Part shown: piece after piece, positions 49,665 through 53,459 of the stretch | Layout of the letters: each line of letters begins with the position of its first letter | Numbering within the stretch: position 1 is the stretch's first letter | Source of the DNA: Sphingobium sp. HWE2-09 | Lineage (GTDB): Bacteria; Pseudomonadota; Alphaproteobacteria; Sphingomonadales; Sphingomonadaceae | Reading direction: 5' to 3' | Assembly (NCBI RefSeq): GCF_035989265.1 | Contig: NZ_JAYKZX010000003.1 | Coordinates: 992,001-1,056,000 of the forward strand | Length of the DNA stretch: 64,000 nt | Translations under genes and position numbers: made by a program | Notes under the pieces: model-generated | Databases searched by the model: none | Seen by the model: only the letters and a program-made list of their open reading frames with translations | Told to the model about the DNA's origin: nothing

Positions 49665-50564
49665 GTGGCCGAAGGCAAAATGCTTTCCTTCCAGGACCTG
49701 ATCCTGACCCTCCACGCCTATTGGGGCAAACAGGGCTGCGTCATCCTGCAACCCTATGACATGGAAGTGGGCGCGGGCACCTTCCACCCCGCGACCACGC
49801 TGCGCGCGCTGGGGCCACAGCCCTGGAACGCCGCCTATGTCCAGCCCAGCCGCCGCCCGACCGACGGCCGCTATGGCGAAAATCCCAACCGGCTTCAGCA
49901 TTATTACCAATATCAGGTGATCATGAAGCCCAGCCCGGCGAACCTACAGGAACTCTATCTGGGCAGCCTGGTGGAGATCGGCATCGATCCGCTGGTCCAC
50001 GACATCCGCTTCGTCGAGGATGACTGGGAAAGCCCGACGCTAGGTGCCTGGGGACTGGGCTGGGAAGTCTGGTGCGACGGCATGGAAGTCACCCAGTTCA
50101 CCTATTTCCAGCAGATGGGCGGCTACGACTGCAAGCCGGTCGCGGGCGAACTGACCTACGGCCTGGAACGGCTCGCCATGTATATTCAGGGCGTCGACAG
50201 CGTGTACGACCTCAAATTCAACGACGCCGGGGTCACCTATGGCGACGTGTTCCTGGCGAACGAACAGCAGATGTCGAAATGGAATTTCGAGGTCGCCGAC
50301 ACCGACAAGCTGTTCCGCTGGTTCAAGGATTGCCAGGCCGAATATGGCCGCTGCATCGACGCGAACGTCCCGCTCGCCGCCTATGACCAGGCGATCAAGG
50401 CCAGCCATGTGTTCAACCTGCTCCAGGCGCGCGGCGTGATATCGGTGCAGGAACGCGCCAGCTATATGAGCCAGGTCCGCGACATGGCGAAGGGCAGCTG
50501 CGAAGCGTGGATCGCCAGCAACAGCGCGGCGTGGACCGCCAAATTTCCGGGGTGGACGGCGTGA
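49665..50564 (+). CDS. glyQ: Glycyl-tRNA synthetase alpha subunit
   Basis: This is the catalytic subunit of the bacterial alpha2beta2 GlyRS. From GTG 49665 (after AAGGACTAACC) it has 299 residues; ATG 49680 would give 294. The class II core includes [39 protein letters not shown] and [19 protein letters not shown]. glyS follows, but a DUF559 gene is lodged between them. Confidence 0.96.
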
Positions 50565-50567
50565 ATC

Positions 50568-51048
50568 CTCCCGGGACGGGGAGGGGGACCGCGCCGCGCA
50601 GCGGCGTGGTGGAGGGGGCGTGCCCCAAGCGCGCCGCCCGGAAACCTACACCGCCCGGACATTGCGCCGTAATATGTCGCTGCCCGAAGTCCTGCTCTGG
50701 CAACGCCTGAGAGGCCAAGCCACCGGCCTGAAATTCCGGCGGCAACATCCGATCGGAAGCTATATCGCTGACTTCTATTGCAGCAGTTTGAAGCTGGTCG
50801 TTGAAGTTGATGGCGAAGCGCATAATCAGGGTGACAACCCGATACGCGATCTTCGTCGGGACAGGTTCATGGAAGAGAATGGATATCAGGTGCTTCGCAT
50901 AGCCGCCTCTAAGATTTTGAAGGACGCTGAAAAAGTGGCCGCATCGATCGCTGCGCTTGGGGCAAGCCCCCTCCACCATCAGCCTGCGGCTGACGGTCCC
51001 CTCGAACGGAGTCACGTGCCTCCGTTCGACCGTGCCGGGGAGGAACTG
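50568..51048. mobile_element. Inverted-repeat-bounded DUF559 cassette between glyQ and glyS
   Basis: Left repeat 50584-50631 and right repeat 50954-51001 are 48-nt inverted copies. The outer 8 nt (GGGGACCG) are identical. The inner 25 nt differ by one base (TGGTGGAGGGGGC, G or T, TGCCCC). The 15-nt centre differs in sequence but forms a 6-bp stem with a GCA loop in both (CGCCGC-GCA-GCGGCG and TCAGCC-GCA-GGCTGA). Flanking CCTCCC-GG-type sequence extends the similarity outward. The right flank also has a 10-bp hairpin (TCGAACGGAG/CTCCGTTCGA, 51002-51029). No transposase is present. Confidence 0.6.
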
Positions 51049-51054
51049 CAATGA
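50620..51054 (+). CDS. DUF559/Vsr-like endonuclease-domain protein
   Basis: The 144-residue protein (GTG 50620, with GGAGGGGG just before; ATG 50674 is possible) has ARTLRRNMSLPEVLLWQRLR near residue 12. The restriction-endonuclease-like core has PIGSYIADFYC (active-site Asp) and LVVEVDGEAH (E-x-D type). This is the DUF559 family, related to Vsr patch-repair nucleases. About the last 30 residues are encoded by the right inverted repeat, and its TGA overlaps the glyS ATG. Whether it cuts DNA, and what it targets, is unknown. Confidence 0.8.
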   Translation: MPQARRPETYTARTLRRNMSLPEVLLWQRLRGQATGLKFRRQHPIGSYIADFYCSSLKLVVEVDGEAHNQGDNPIRDLRRDRFMEENGYQVLRIAASKILKDAEKVAASIAALGASPLHHQPAADGPLERSHVPPFDRAGEELQ

Positions 51055-53459
51055 CGGATTTCCTCCTTGAACTGCGCTGCGAGGAAATTCCCGCGCGTAT
51101 GCAAATAAAGGCCAGCGAAGACCTCGCCCGCCTGTTCACCGAGGAACTGGCCAAGGCCGGCCTGACGCCCGCCGCCATCGACAGTTTCGTCACGCCCCGC
51201 CGCCTGGCGCTGATCGCGCGCGACCTGCCGCTGGAAACGGCCGCAGTCAGCGAAGAATTTAAAGGCCCGCGCACGTCCGCCCCCGCGCAGGCGCTGGACG
51301 GATTCCTGCGAAAGACCGGCCTGATCCAGGACCAGTTGGAAGACCGCGACGGCGTCTGGTTCGCCGTCGTCAACAAGCCCGGCCGCGCCACCATGGACGT
51401 CTTGGCGCAGGCCGTGCCCGCCGTCATTCGCGCTTTCCCCTGGCCCAAATCGATGCGCTGGGGCGTCGCCAGCCAGACGACCGAGAGCCTGCGCTGGGTC
51501 CGCCCGTTGAAGGGCATCGTCGCGATCCTGGGCGAACAGCGGGTCGATATCGATGTCGAAGGCGTACGCTCGGGCTATGCGACGCTCGGCCATCGCTTCC
51601 ATCACCCCGGTGAGATCACCATCGGCGGCGCGGACGACTATGTCGAAAAGCTGCGCGCCTGCCACGTGATCGTCTCCCATCAGGAGCGCCAGGCGATCAT
51701 CGCGGCAAAAGCCGACGAAGCCGCCGCCGTCCACGGTTACAGCGTGATCGAGGACAAGGGGCTGGTCGCGGAAAATGCGGGCCTGACCGAATGGCCGGTG
51801 CCGTTGCTGGGCGATTTCGATCCTGCCTTCCTGGAAGTGCCGCCCGAAGTCATCCAGCTGACGCTGCGCATCAACCAGAAATATTTCGTCCTGCGCGACG
51901 CCGCCGGGAAGCTGGCGCCCGCCTTCATCTGCACCGCGAATATCGACGCGACGGACGGCGGCGCGGCGATCGTCGCAGGCAACCGCAAAGTGCTGGCCGC
52001 ACGCCTGAGCGACGCGCGCTTCTTCTGGGAGCAGGACCGCAAGACCGCGCTGGCGGATCACGCTAAAAAGCTGGAACGCATCACCTTCCACGAGAAACTG
52101 GGCACCGTCGCCGACAAGGTCGAGCGCGTCGCCAAGCTGGCGCGCTGGCTGGTGGAAGAGGGGATTGTCACGGCAGGAACCCTCTCCCTTGAGGGAGAGG
52201 GTAGGGAGAGGGTGCTCAACGCTGATGTAGTACGCGACGCCAGCGCCGAACCCCCTCACCCCAGCCCTCTCCCCGTCGGGGAGAGGGAGCAACTTGCCGA
52301 CCTAGCCGAACAGGCCGCCCGCCTGTGCAAGGCCGACCTCGTCACCGAAATGGTCGGCGAGTTCCCCGAACTGCAAGGCATCATGGGCGGCTACTACGCC
52401 CGCGCCGAAGGCTTGCCCGATGCCGTCGCCGACGCGATCCGCGACCATTATAAGCCGGTCGGGCAGGGCGATGACGTACCGACCGCGCCGGTCACGGTGG
52501 CGGTGAGTTTGGCGGATAAGCTGGATACGCTGGTTGCATTCTTCAGTGAAGATATGCGCCCGAGCGGCTCTAAGGATCCATTTGCCCTTCGGCGCGCAGC
52601 GTTGTCGGTGCTAGCGATCATGAATACTAATCAACTTCGGCTAGCGATTTTGCCTAGTGTACTTTGCCAAGGGCTAAAATGGCTTCCATCTGACATAGTT
52701 GGTTTAGATGAAGTTTATCATCGTAGTGTTAATGAGATGCTCAACGATGCTGACAGCAATCAGGTTATGGTCGGCATTGAACAAGAAAAAGAGGCGTACG
52801 AGCATGAACGCACGCACCGTTGGCGAACGCACGACGGGCAATTCCTCGACTTCTTCGCCGACCGCCTCAAGGTCCAGCAGAAGGAAGCCGGCGTCCGCCA
52901 CGACCTGATCGACGCGGTGTTTGCGCTGGGCGGTGAGCACGATCTCGTCCGCCTACTCGCCCGCGTCCATGCGCTCCAATCCTTTGTCGCGACCGACGAC
53001 GGCGCAAACCTGCTCGCCGGCTACAAGCGCGCCGCCAATATCCTCAAGAAGGAAGCGCCGACCTCTCCATCCGTTCGCCCTGAGCCTGTCGAAGGGCCGG
53101 GCCGAGCGGAGCCGAGGCCTTCTGACGCTGCGGGCTTCGCTCACGCTCAGCCAAGTGCTTCGACTTCGCTCAGCACGAACGGGATTTCAGCCCTGTCCTA
53201 CACGCCCGAAATAGCCGAAGCTGCGCTCATCGCCGCGCTCGACACGGCCGAGCCTCGCGCGGCGCAGGCCGTTGCTGACGAGCGGTTCGAAGAGGCCATG
53301 GCCGCGCTCGCCACCTTGCGCGCGCCGATCGACGCCTTCTTCGACACCGTCACCGTCAACGACGCCGATCCGGCCAAGCGGGACGCGCGTCTGGCATTGC
53401 TGGCCCGCGTCCGCCACGCGGTCCATAATGTCGCTGACTTTTCGAAGATTACGGGATGA
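51051..53459 (+). CDS. glyS: Glycyl-tRNA synthetase beta subunit, with two repeat insertions
   Basis: The 802-residue protein is about 110 longer than E. coli GlyS. The tRNA-binding/beta-subunit fold is seen in LLELRCEEIPARMQ, GRATMDVLAQAVP, SMRWG and PLLGDFDPAFLEVPPEV. In-frame extra segments lie at about residues 377-413 and 674-711, both encoded by palindromic repeats. The region at about residues 504-588 (52560-52815) has much lower GC and rarer codons than the rest. The C-terminal anticodon-binding domain ends NDADPAKRDARLALL. The start has GAGGA from the cassette's right end. Confidence 0.94.
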   Translation: MTDFLLELRCEEIPARMQIKASEDLARLFTEELAKAGLTPAAIDSFVTPRRLALIARDLPLETAAVSEEFKGPRTSAPAQALDGFLRKTGLIQDQLEDRDGVWFAVVNKPGRATMDVLAQAVPAVIRAFPWPKSMRWGVASQTTESLRWVRPLKGIVAILGEQRVDIDVEGVRSGYATLGHRFHHPGEITIGGADDYVEKLRACHVIVSHQERQAIIAAKADEAAAVHGYSVIEDKGLVAENAGLTEWPVPLLGDFDPAFLEVPPEVIQLTLRINQKYFVLRDAAGKLAPAFICTANIDATDGGAAIVAGNRKVLAARLSDARFFWEQDRKTALADHAKKLERITFHEKLGTVADKVERVAKLARWLVEEGIVTAGTLSLEGEGRERVLNADVVRDASAEPPHPSPLPVGEREQLADLAEQAARLCKADLVTEMVGEFPELQGIMGGYYARAEGLPDAVADAIRDHYKPVGQGDDVPTAPVTVAVSLADKLDTLVAFFSEDMRPSGSKDPFALRRAALSVLAIMNTNQLRLAILPSVLCQGLKWLPSDIVGLDEVYHRSVNEMLNDADSNQVMVGIEQEKEAYEHERTHRWRTHDGQFLDFFADRLKVQQKEAGVRHDLIDAVFALGGEHDLVRLLARVHALQSFVATDDGANLLAGYKRAANILKKEAPTSPSVRPEPVEGPGRAEPRPSDAAGFAHAQPSASTSLSTNGISALSYTPEIAEAALIAALDTAEPRAAQAVADERFEEAMAALATLRAPIDAFFDTVTVNDADPAKRDARLALLARVRHAVHNVADFSKITG
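52180..52287. repeat. Palindromic repeat pair inserted in glyS (site 1)
   Basis: Hairpin 1 is CCCTCTCCC (52180-52188) with GGGAGAGGG (52193-52201). Hairpin 2 is CCCTCTCCCC (52265-52274) with GGGGAGAGGG (52278-52287). Each carries a similar G-rich or C-rich arm facing inward, so the whole is an inverted pair around about 33 nt. It keeps the glyS frame open. Confidence 0.8.
53071..53183. repeat. Palindromic repeat inserted in glyS (site 2)
   Basis: The arm at 53071-53096 (CCGTTCGCCCTGAGCCTGTC onward) and the arm at 53156-53183 (GCTTCGACTTCGCTCAGCAC onward) are inverted copies of the family at 46628. They bring about 38 codons in frame near the 3' end of glyS. Confidence 0.8.

Follow-up and report, generated by a model that had tools for sequence, protein, structure and literature searches.

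Some REP-like hairpins of bacterial genomes come without a transposase, which raises the question of how they spread. In RAYT/REP/REPIN systems (REPtrons, TIRtrons), a single mobility-type gene lies between inverted hairpins, gene-free copies occur in the genome, and the repeat type goes with the protein type. A second described system is formed by the free-standing homing endonuclease genes of phages, which encode the EDxHD enzyme I-Bth0305I as well as GIY-YIG and HNH enzymes. Different homing nucleases have been reported at the same location in relatives of phages (PMC10448857); homing endonuclease families, as presented in PMC3943268, include GIY-YIG and EDxHD. The protein itself invites comparison with VsrA (CCNA_02930) of Caulobacter crescentus, which has been studied as a Vsr-like nuclease and to which PMC12907096 attributes the SOS response seen in some of the cells without the ScmA methylase; a term search of that article for palindromes and inverted repeats was negative.

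We describe here a DUF559 nuclease gene that lies, bounded by hairpin repeats, between glyQ and glyS of Sphingobium sp. HWE2-09; the whole stretch of DNA analyzed, 64,000 nucleotides long, is referred to as the window. The hairpin ends and gene-free pairs of this cassette resemble RAYT/REP systems as portrayed in PMC3733652, and the agreement extends to the single mobility-type gene and to the match between repeat type and protein type. The cassette differs from them in encoding a PD-(D/E)XK-like nuclease, unrelated to the HUH-tyrosine transposase of RAYTs, in having no GTAG tag at its ends, and in its location at fixed junctions. DUF559 cassettes are best read as parallel but unrelated to RAYT/REP. 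With phage homing genes it shares a position between conserved genes and the occurrence of different nucleases at one location among relatives, and its predicted fold is close to that of I-Bth0305I. Unlike those genes, it resides on bacterial chromosomes, is bounded by REP-like inverted hairpins, has gene-free copies, and encodes a nuclease without a DNA-binding extension; homing is, in its case, something that we infer.

The best reading of the evidence presented below is a compact selfish element, in which a small Vsr/EDxHD-like nuclease gene is bounded by inverted two-hairpin ends. We hold with moderate confidence that the cassette behaves like a homing endonuclease gene of the free-standing sort, furnished with REP-like ends. 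Such ends, and pairs of them without a gene, add something new to what is known of free-standing homing genes. Related genes in other bacteria mostly have boundaries of this kind and return to a small set of genome sites, which suggests a selfish element that seeks out sites and has attracted little notice. DUF559 is widespread (99 of 119 sampled family genomes) yet seldom named in the literature searched, and this reading would suggest both what it does and how it persists, as a selfish gene that is bound to sites and competes for slots between core genes. In the titles and abstract openings searched, mostly outside subscription papers and bioRxiv preprints, no earlier work connected DUF559 or GIY-YIG genes with REP-like repeats at their flanks.

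A hairpin-bounded nuclease cassette between glyQ and glyS

The cassette is framed by glyQ (glycine–tRNA ligase alpha, 49665–50564, forward strand; start codon estimated, stop TGA at 50562–50564) and glyS (glycine–tRNA ligase beta, 51051–53459, forward strand), both named by NCBIfam. Between the two lies a 144-codon DUF559 (PF04480) gene (50620–51054, forward strand; E 5e-31 in the profile search) of the lineage that we call clade A; its GTG start codon falls within the left arm of the repeat. The left terminal repeat, of type A (50566–50618, forward strand), opens directly after the glyQ stop with the outer hairpin CCTCCC-GGGACG-GGGAGG, which is preceded by (T) and lies within 50566–50584; GGGGACC, an inner variable stem with a GCA loop (50588–50610), and GGTGGAGGGGG follow in that order. 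Copies of this terminal repeat were also found among the family loci.

A repeat search returned a 49-nt inverted repeat with its left arm at 50584–50632 (forward strand) and its right arm, the inner part of the right end, at 50953–51001 (reverse strand); the arms are 78% complementary and 320 nt apart. In the right end, a 28-nt palindrome (51002–51029, no strand assigned, 93% complementary) splits the outer hairpin, whose remnant (CCGTGCCGGGGAGGA, 51030–51044, reverse strand) carries a Shine-Dalgarno-like GGAGGA before glyS, with GGGGAGGA of the right end standing ahead of that gene. Each cassette end is a two-hairpin structure, reaching 50566 on the left and, as a remnant, 51044 on the right. 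The preliminary description had recognized 48-nt ends; these are indeed inverted copies, but they form only the inner part of the full ends. Its proposal that the right end supplies the glyS ribosome-binding site agrees with the GGAGGA in the outer hairpin remnant, and the same arrangement recurs in two loci from other genomes, L223 (Sphingomonadales bacterium UBA7473) and L224 (a Sphingomonadaceae MAG). The 28-nt palindrome was absent from every other copy compared by eye.

Read directly from the sequence, the nuclease gene starts in the left repeat and its stop (TGA, 51052–51054) overlaps the glyS ATG (51051) as ATGA, both as first described. The accompanying statement that the gene ends in the right repeat holds for its last codons, which come from that repeat. 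Neither end of the cassette contains GTAG, and CGTC turns up solely in the right end, within the variable stem, and not as a fixed tag. By eye, comparison with the empty TGATG site revealed no clear target-site duplication for the window cassette; ATGAC(C), the sequence with which glyS also begins, stands on both sides of some gene-free pairs at glyQ–glyS.

A gene-free inverted hairpin pair of another type (type B) lies in frame within glyS itself (52180–52287, no strand assigned; hairpins at 52180 and 52265). It corresponds to approximately residues 374–417, where six of the 10 relatives compared (L130, L131, L136, L140, L141, and L151) have a gap of ∼38 residues.

Compensatory change in the hairpin ends

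In the 48-nt register, 32 of the 33 outer positions of the two arms agree; of the 11 mismatches in all, the central 15 nt account for 10. The arm centers, CGCCGC-GCA-GCGGCG and TCAGCC-GCA-GGCTGA, nonetheless each fold into a 6-bp stem capped by a GCA loop, exactly as had been noticed at the outset. Covariation of this stem, proposed then as a check, was assessed over 76 distinct inner sequences of type A repeats: 369 of 386 stem positions pair (95.6%), against an expectation of 71.7% (s.d. 2.0%) when 3′ arms were dealt among units of equal length. Because of this excess over the shuffles, we conclude that the compensatory stem change is real and general across type A repeats.

The type A repeat exists also as gene-free inverted pairs. 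In the genome that contains the window (4.44 Mb, three contigs), the 72-nt left end had 44 matches with E ≤ 10, of which many are weak, and four matches that were read singly proved to be gene-free inverted pairs of about 120–155 bp.

Family and fold of the nuclease

The window protein matched the PF04480 profile with 107.2 bits (curated cut-off, 20.6), and 10 residues, among them E23, D51, E62, D64, H68, and D77, are invariant over 37 sequences. A structure model (mean pLDDT of 82, 37-sequence alignment) had its best Foldseek match in the DUF559-like NGO0050 of Neisseria gonorrhoeae (PDB 3HRL; E 1.1e-6), a solved structure that was also the best profile match. The homing endonuclease I-Bth0305I (3R3P) was matched with E 2.2e-4 and a target-normalized TM of 0.74, the third match was to Toxoplasma mitoribosomal proteins (RAP-domain; 2.4e-4), and PvuRts1I and Vsr gave weaker matches. 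Profile searching likewise returned 3HRL, 3R3P (I-Bth0305I; E 7.4e-5), and PvuRts1I. The modeled fold appears to resemble the catalytic domain of I-Bth0305I. The protein is without the added DNA-binding region of the phage homing enzyme sort, a point against a homing-like reading. It had first been designated a Vsr-like nuclease; we call it Vsr/EDxHD-like, and VsrA of Caulobacter has the same DUF559 domain.

Inverted repeats recur around DUF559 genes

Nine DUF559 matches were found in the genome of the window. Seven are small genes, each enclosed, by eye, by hairpin repeats, which fall into two main types; in L007 the right end is worn. The weaker matches, L008 and L009, sit inside ORFs of about 2000 codons.

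Within the sphingomonad-like family, a DUF559 match (E ≤ 1e-8) was present in 99 of the 119 sampled genomes. We scored flanking inverted repeats at 93 loci, comprising the seven of the window's own genome, 26 best-per-genome loci (29, minus three at contig ends), and 60 further loci, a nonrandom choice of 40 near the top and 20 near the bottom among the matches listed, made with their flanks not viewed. GIY-YIG genes failed as a negative control, with inverted repeats of their own in 22 of 30 loci, and for that reason neighbor genes and random windows were used instead. A score of at least 35 was reached at 76 of the 93 DUF559 loci, compared with three of 600 random windows (drawn from the 60 longer loci) and none of 161 neighbor genes; the suggestion that DUF559 genes would prove to be regularly repeat-flanked is borne out by these counts. 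Among the 17 loci below the threshold, 16 still had a match to a hairpin regex on one or both sides, an uncontrolled count.

The repeats are very G/C-rich, as they would be if they were a chance or compositional artifact of GC-rich DNA. The controls refute such an artifact (3/600 and 0/161 here, and 0/300 in the GIY-YIG survey described below); the stem covariation also contradicts it, as does the reversed type A pattern, which occurred zero times in 119 genomes, and we regard it as vanishingly improbable.

Beyond the family, a phylum-wide sample of 28 loci, one of them not evaluable, had 12 of 27 passing the threshold (controls, 1/54). The loci below it, 15 of these 27 and 17 of the 93 in the family, count against the homing-like reading. 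Among named loci found with the window protein (best 80 of 521), 51 of the 73 evaluable ones passed, an uncontrolled count. Passing loci came from Sphingomonas, Sphingobium, Novosphingobium, Erythrobacter, Caulobacter, Hyphomonas, Reyranella, and Marilutibacter, as well as from the planctomycete Adhaeretor mobilis and a Chitinophagaceae MAG. Six Bacteroidota DUF559 loci (L261, L263, L264, L276, L286, and L288) had CCCCCTAACCCCCTAAAGGGGG-like flanking repeats with a different hairpin; of these, L263 alone passed the score threshold. Phage and plasmid collections contributed three phage and 41 plasmid records, all at <60% identity.

Repeat type follows nuclease clade

We placed 89 of the 93 proteins on a tree (one of the other four was too short, and three were untyped). 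Fifteen type A loci fell inside a single clade of 16 with support of 100/99; the sixteenth member (L127) was typed as B by the script and kept as such in the count, and is type A by eye. Repeat type required two changes on this tree, against 14.1 in shuffles. At the 76 loci from which repeats were extracted, protein identity correlated with repeat similarity (rho 0.34, 0/2000 permutations). For pairs from different genomes the correlation held when labels were permuted within genomes only (0/2000), and the 55 same-genome pairs gave a rho of 0.38 (3/2000 permutations). Nuclease and repeat are inherited as a unit, and type A is one of several repeat types, each with its own nuclease clade. Linkage alone could produce such covariation between a nuclease and its flanking repeat, which weighs against taking it as a sign of homing.

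In a blind test, inverted type A pairs with 375–395 bp between units were taken from four genomes (G009, G100, G069, and G050) among the type A pattern matches listed; all four enclosed a clade A DUF559 gene.

At the level of whole genomes, the type A pattern was found in 53 of the 99 genomes with DUF559 and in one of the 20 without (Fisher 3.7e-5, ignoring relatedness). Of the 119 genomes, 38 had type A repeats as well as a clade A nuclease and 60 had neither, with five having the nuclease only and 16 the repeats only (Fisher 3.9e-13 with relatedness ignored; 21/119 discordant). Clade A was called at a cut-off of at least 117 bits, plus one shortened match (G089) counted by hand, and was scored among no more than 40 first-look candidates in each genome, so that absence is no proof. 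Type A repeat units numbered up to 118 per genome. The 6.9-Mb genome G011 had 102 type A units and no clade A nuclease among the candidates scored.

These associations could mean that DUF559 acts in a RAYT-like manner, recognizing matching hairpins and mobilizing in trans both its own cassette and gene-free pairs, as in REPINs. We consider this unlikely, and say the same of its wider form, in which REP families without a transposase would owe their mobility to DUF559. Both genome-level associations speak for such a role, as does the abundance of the repeats. So does the lack of a Y1 transposase match in the window's own genome: PF01797 (Y1_Tnp) had zero matches there at E ≤ 0.001, and we rejected a RAYT as the mobilizer on this ground. 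Against the RAYT-like role stand the 16 genomes that retain repeats without a clade A nuclease, the binding of cassettes to sites (see below), and a locus, L330, which illustrates how internal deletion can create gene-free pairs. To our knowledge, no single-strand or circular intermediate is known for this nuclease fold, which counts against it as well. The same 16 genomes argue against a strict dependence of the repeats on the nuclease and, together with the five converse cases, against the homing-like reading.

Recurrent sites, empty alleles, and replacement of nucleases

We surveyed glyQ–glyS across the genus in the 30 best-matching of 60 genome loci. Among these, 12 had a clean TGATG overlap, supplying the empty sites whose existence had been put forward as a check, and the nuclease was present in the window only. 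Another 12 had gene-free pairs of two unrelated kinds by eye (seven CATCCC..GGGAT-like, five CGTTCG/TCGA-like), two had a gene-free type A-like pair, and three were unparsed. Outside the best 30, the same kind of cassette occupies glyQ–glyS in L223 and L224. The three glyQ–glyS nucleases may form a single clade, which the tree test did not reject (p-AU 0.56).

Another site of interest lies upstream of dnaG, a gene named by NCBIfam; the gene preceding it had no NCBIfam match and is presumably YqeY-like. In the best 30 of 60 genomes, this site held DUF559 in 18, GIY-YIG in nine, an internal-deletion derivative in one, and nothing in two. The GIY-YIG genes have their own repeats (two of the nine are short remnants), and several of their cassettes are nested, by eye, between remnants of DUF559-type hairpins. 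DUF559 at this site forms three groups (of six, four, and eight), which are separate on the tree; their separation takes three changes, of which well-supported branches force only one. Median dN/dS values within the groups were 0.11, 0.155, and 0.145: the DUF559 nucleases are under purifying selection. The deletion derivative (L330, 1338–1500) is a 163-bp remainder of a DUF559 cassette with both hairpin ends kept, and it likely records the birth of a gene-free pair.

Twenty recurrent slots, defined by both flanks being shared, contain 103 of 172 loci. The slot representatives that were named lie at core operon junctions such as pntA–pntB (a slot of 18) and trpB–trpA; the representative of a slot of 13 lies between a carboxyltransferase and a biotin-carboxylase-like start, and further ones lie beside the ribonucleotide reductase alpha gene, purL, hisZ, and sufB. 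Slot labels on an 84-protein tree required 19 changes, against 59.3 in shuffles, and the most similar cross-genome nuclease pairs had flanking genes in common in 27 of 39 cases. Nuclease and host-gene distances in the three biggest slots were correlated with rho of 0.20, 0.18, and 0.49, and eight, 96, and 11 of 500 permutations, respectively, were equally high. Given the few slot changes, the sharing of flanks, and these weak-to-moderate correlations, each nuclease lineage is tied to its sites, and any vertical signal is partial at most.

Transposition accounts for such site binding less well than site-specific homing or long-lasting vertical retention does. The slot analysis weakens the case for free transposition as the chief mode, and similar nucleases, which we had expected in differing contexts, mostly share theirs. 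The cassette had been described in advance as a non-transposase mobile unit that enters operons without breaking them; it is transposase-free, hairpin-bounded, and compatible with unbroken operons, but the free movement implied by that description is not supported, with 19 slot changes against 59.3 in shuffles.

Vertical retention accompanied by losses could also yield site-bound lineages, which tells against the homing-like reading. In its full form, this alternative sees DUF559 as an old Vsr-like DNA-repair or quality nuclease at fixed sites, with the hairpins as elements of operon RNA processing or stability; we rate it unlikely. Purifying selection, sites common to several genera, and the part played by VsrA in the SOS response of Caulobacter cells without ScmA, as given in PMC12907096, are in its favor. 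It has difficulty with the patchy presence of the gene and the clean empty sites within one genus, with unrelated GIY-YIG nucleases that replace DUF559 at the same junction and bring their own inverted repeats, and with the several divergent copies per genome, the mirror-image ends on both sides, and the gene-free pairs. The attendant claim, that repeats and nuclease gene covary through linkage, we judge equally unlikely.

We prefer the homing-like reading because of the site-bound distribution, the empty alleles, the replacement of one nuclease by another, the location at junctions of conserved genes, and the fold kinship, all of them features that free-standing homing genes display in phages (PMC10448857). 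The same insertion site is occupied in different genomes and unoccupied in alleles of relatives, as would be expected of a free-standing homing endonuclease gene. On the homing-like reading, the nuclease would cut an unoccupied conserved junction (here glyQ|glyS) in an element-free genome or in incoming DNA, and repair from an occupied copy would then install the cassette at the cut junction by gene conversion. The hairpin ends would allow the cassette to sit in an operon without severing the next gene from it, the right end bringing a ribosome-binding site for the downstream gene. Gene-free hairpin pairs may be internal-deletion or non-autonomous derivatives, some perhaps moved by the nuclease.

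A parallel in GIY-YIG genes

The GIY-YIG genes that failed as a control form a parallel case. Flanking inverted repeats were found at 22 of 30 best-per-genome loci (L159–L188) and in none of 300 random windows. Typed by script, 19 of these repeats were of the CGTTCG/TCGA kind, three of a CCCGCG kind, and none of the 22 of the CCTCCC kind. With two unrelated nuclease families that have homing members, each tied to its own hairpins, the spread of REP-like hairpins becomes testable.

An alternative would make the nucleases recombination cargo: another agent spreads hairpin pairs, and DUF559 rides along when spacers are swapped between pairs. The GIY-YIG cassettes upstream of dnaG that lie, by eye, between DUF559-type hairpin remnants in several genomes are what such swaps might leave. 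The wide-spaced pairs that were opened, however, all contained DUF559 (4/4), and repeat type follows both nuclease family (0/22 GIY-YIG loci of the CCTCCC kind) and clade; we find this alternative very unlikely.

Extending the homing-like reading, we tentatively propose that, in many bacteria, each transposase-less REP-like family represents the ends of its own homing-type nuclease lineage, within a widespread class of elements. The nuclease would spread through cuts at conserved operon junctions and seed gene-free pairs over the genome. As an equally tentative assignment, DUF559 would be the nuclease for CCTCCCC/CCCTCTCCC hairpins and GIY-YIG the one for CGTTCG-TCGA hairpins. In the window, the 3′ part of glyS (53071–53183) contains a second inverted pair, which by eye is of the GIY-YIG-associated kind (CCGTTCGCCCTGAGCCTGTCGAAGGGC ... 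CACGAACGG).
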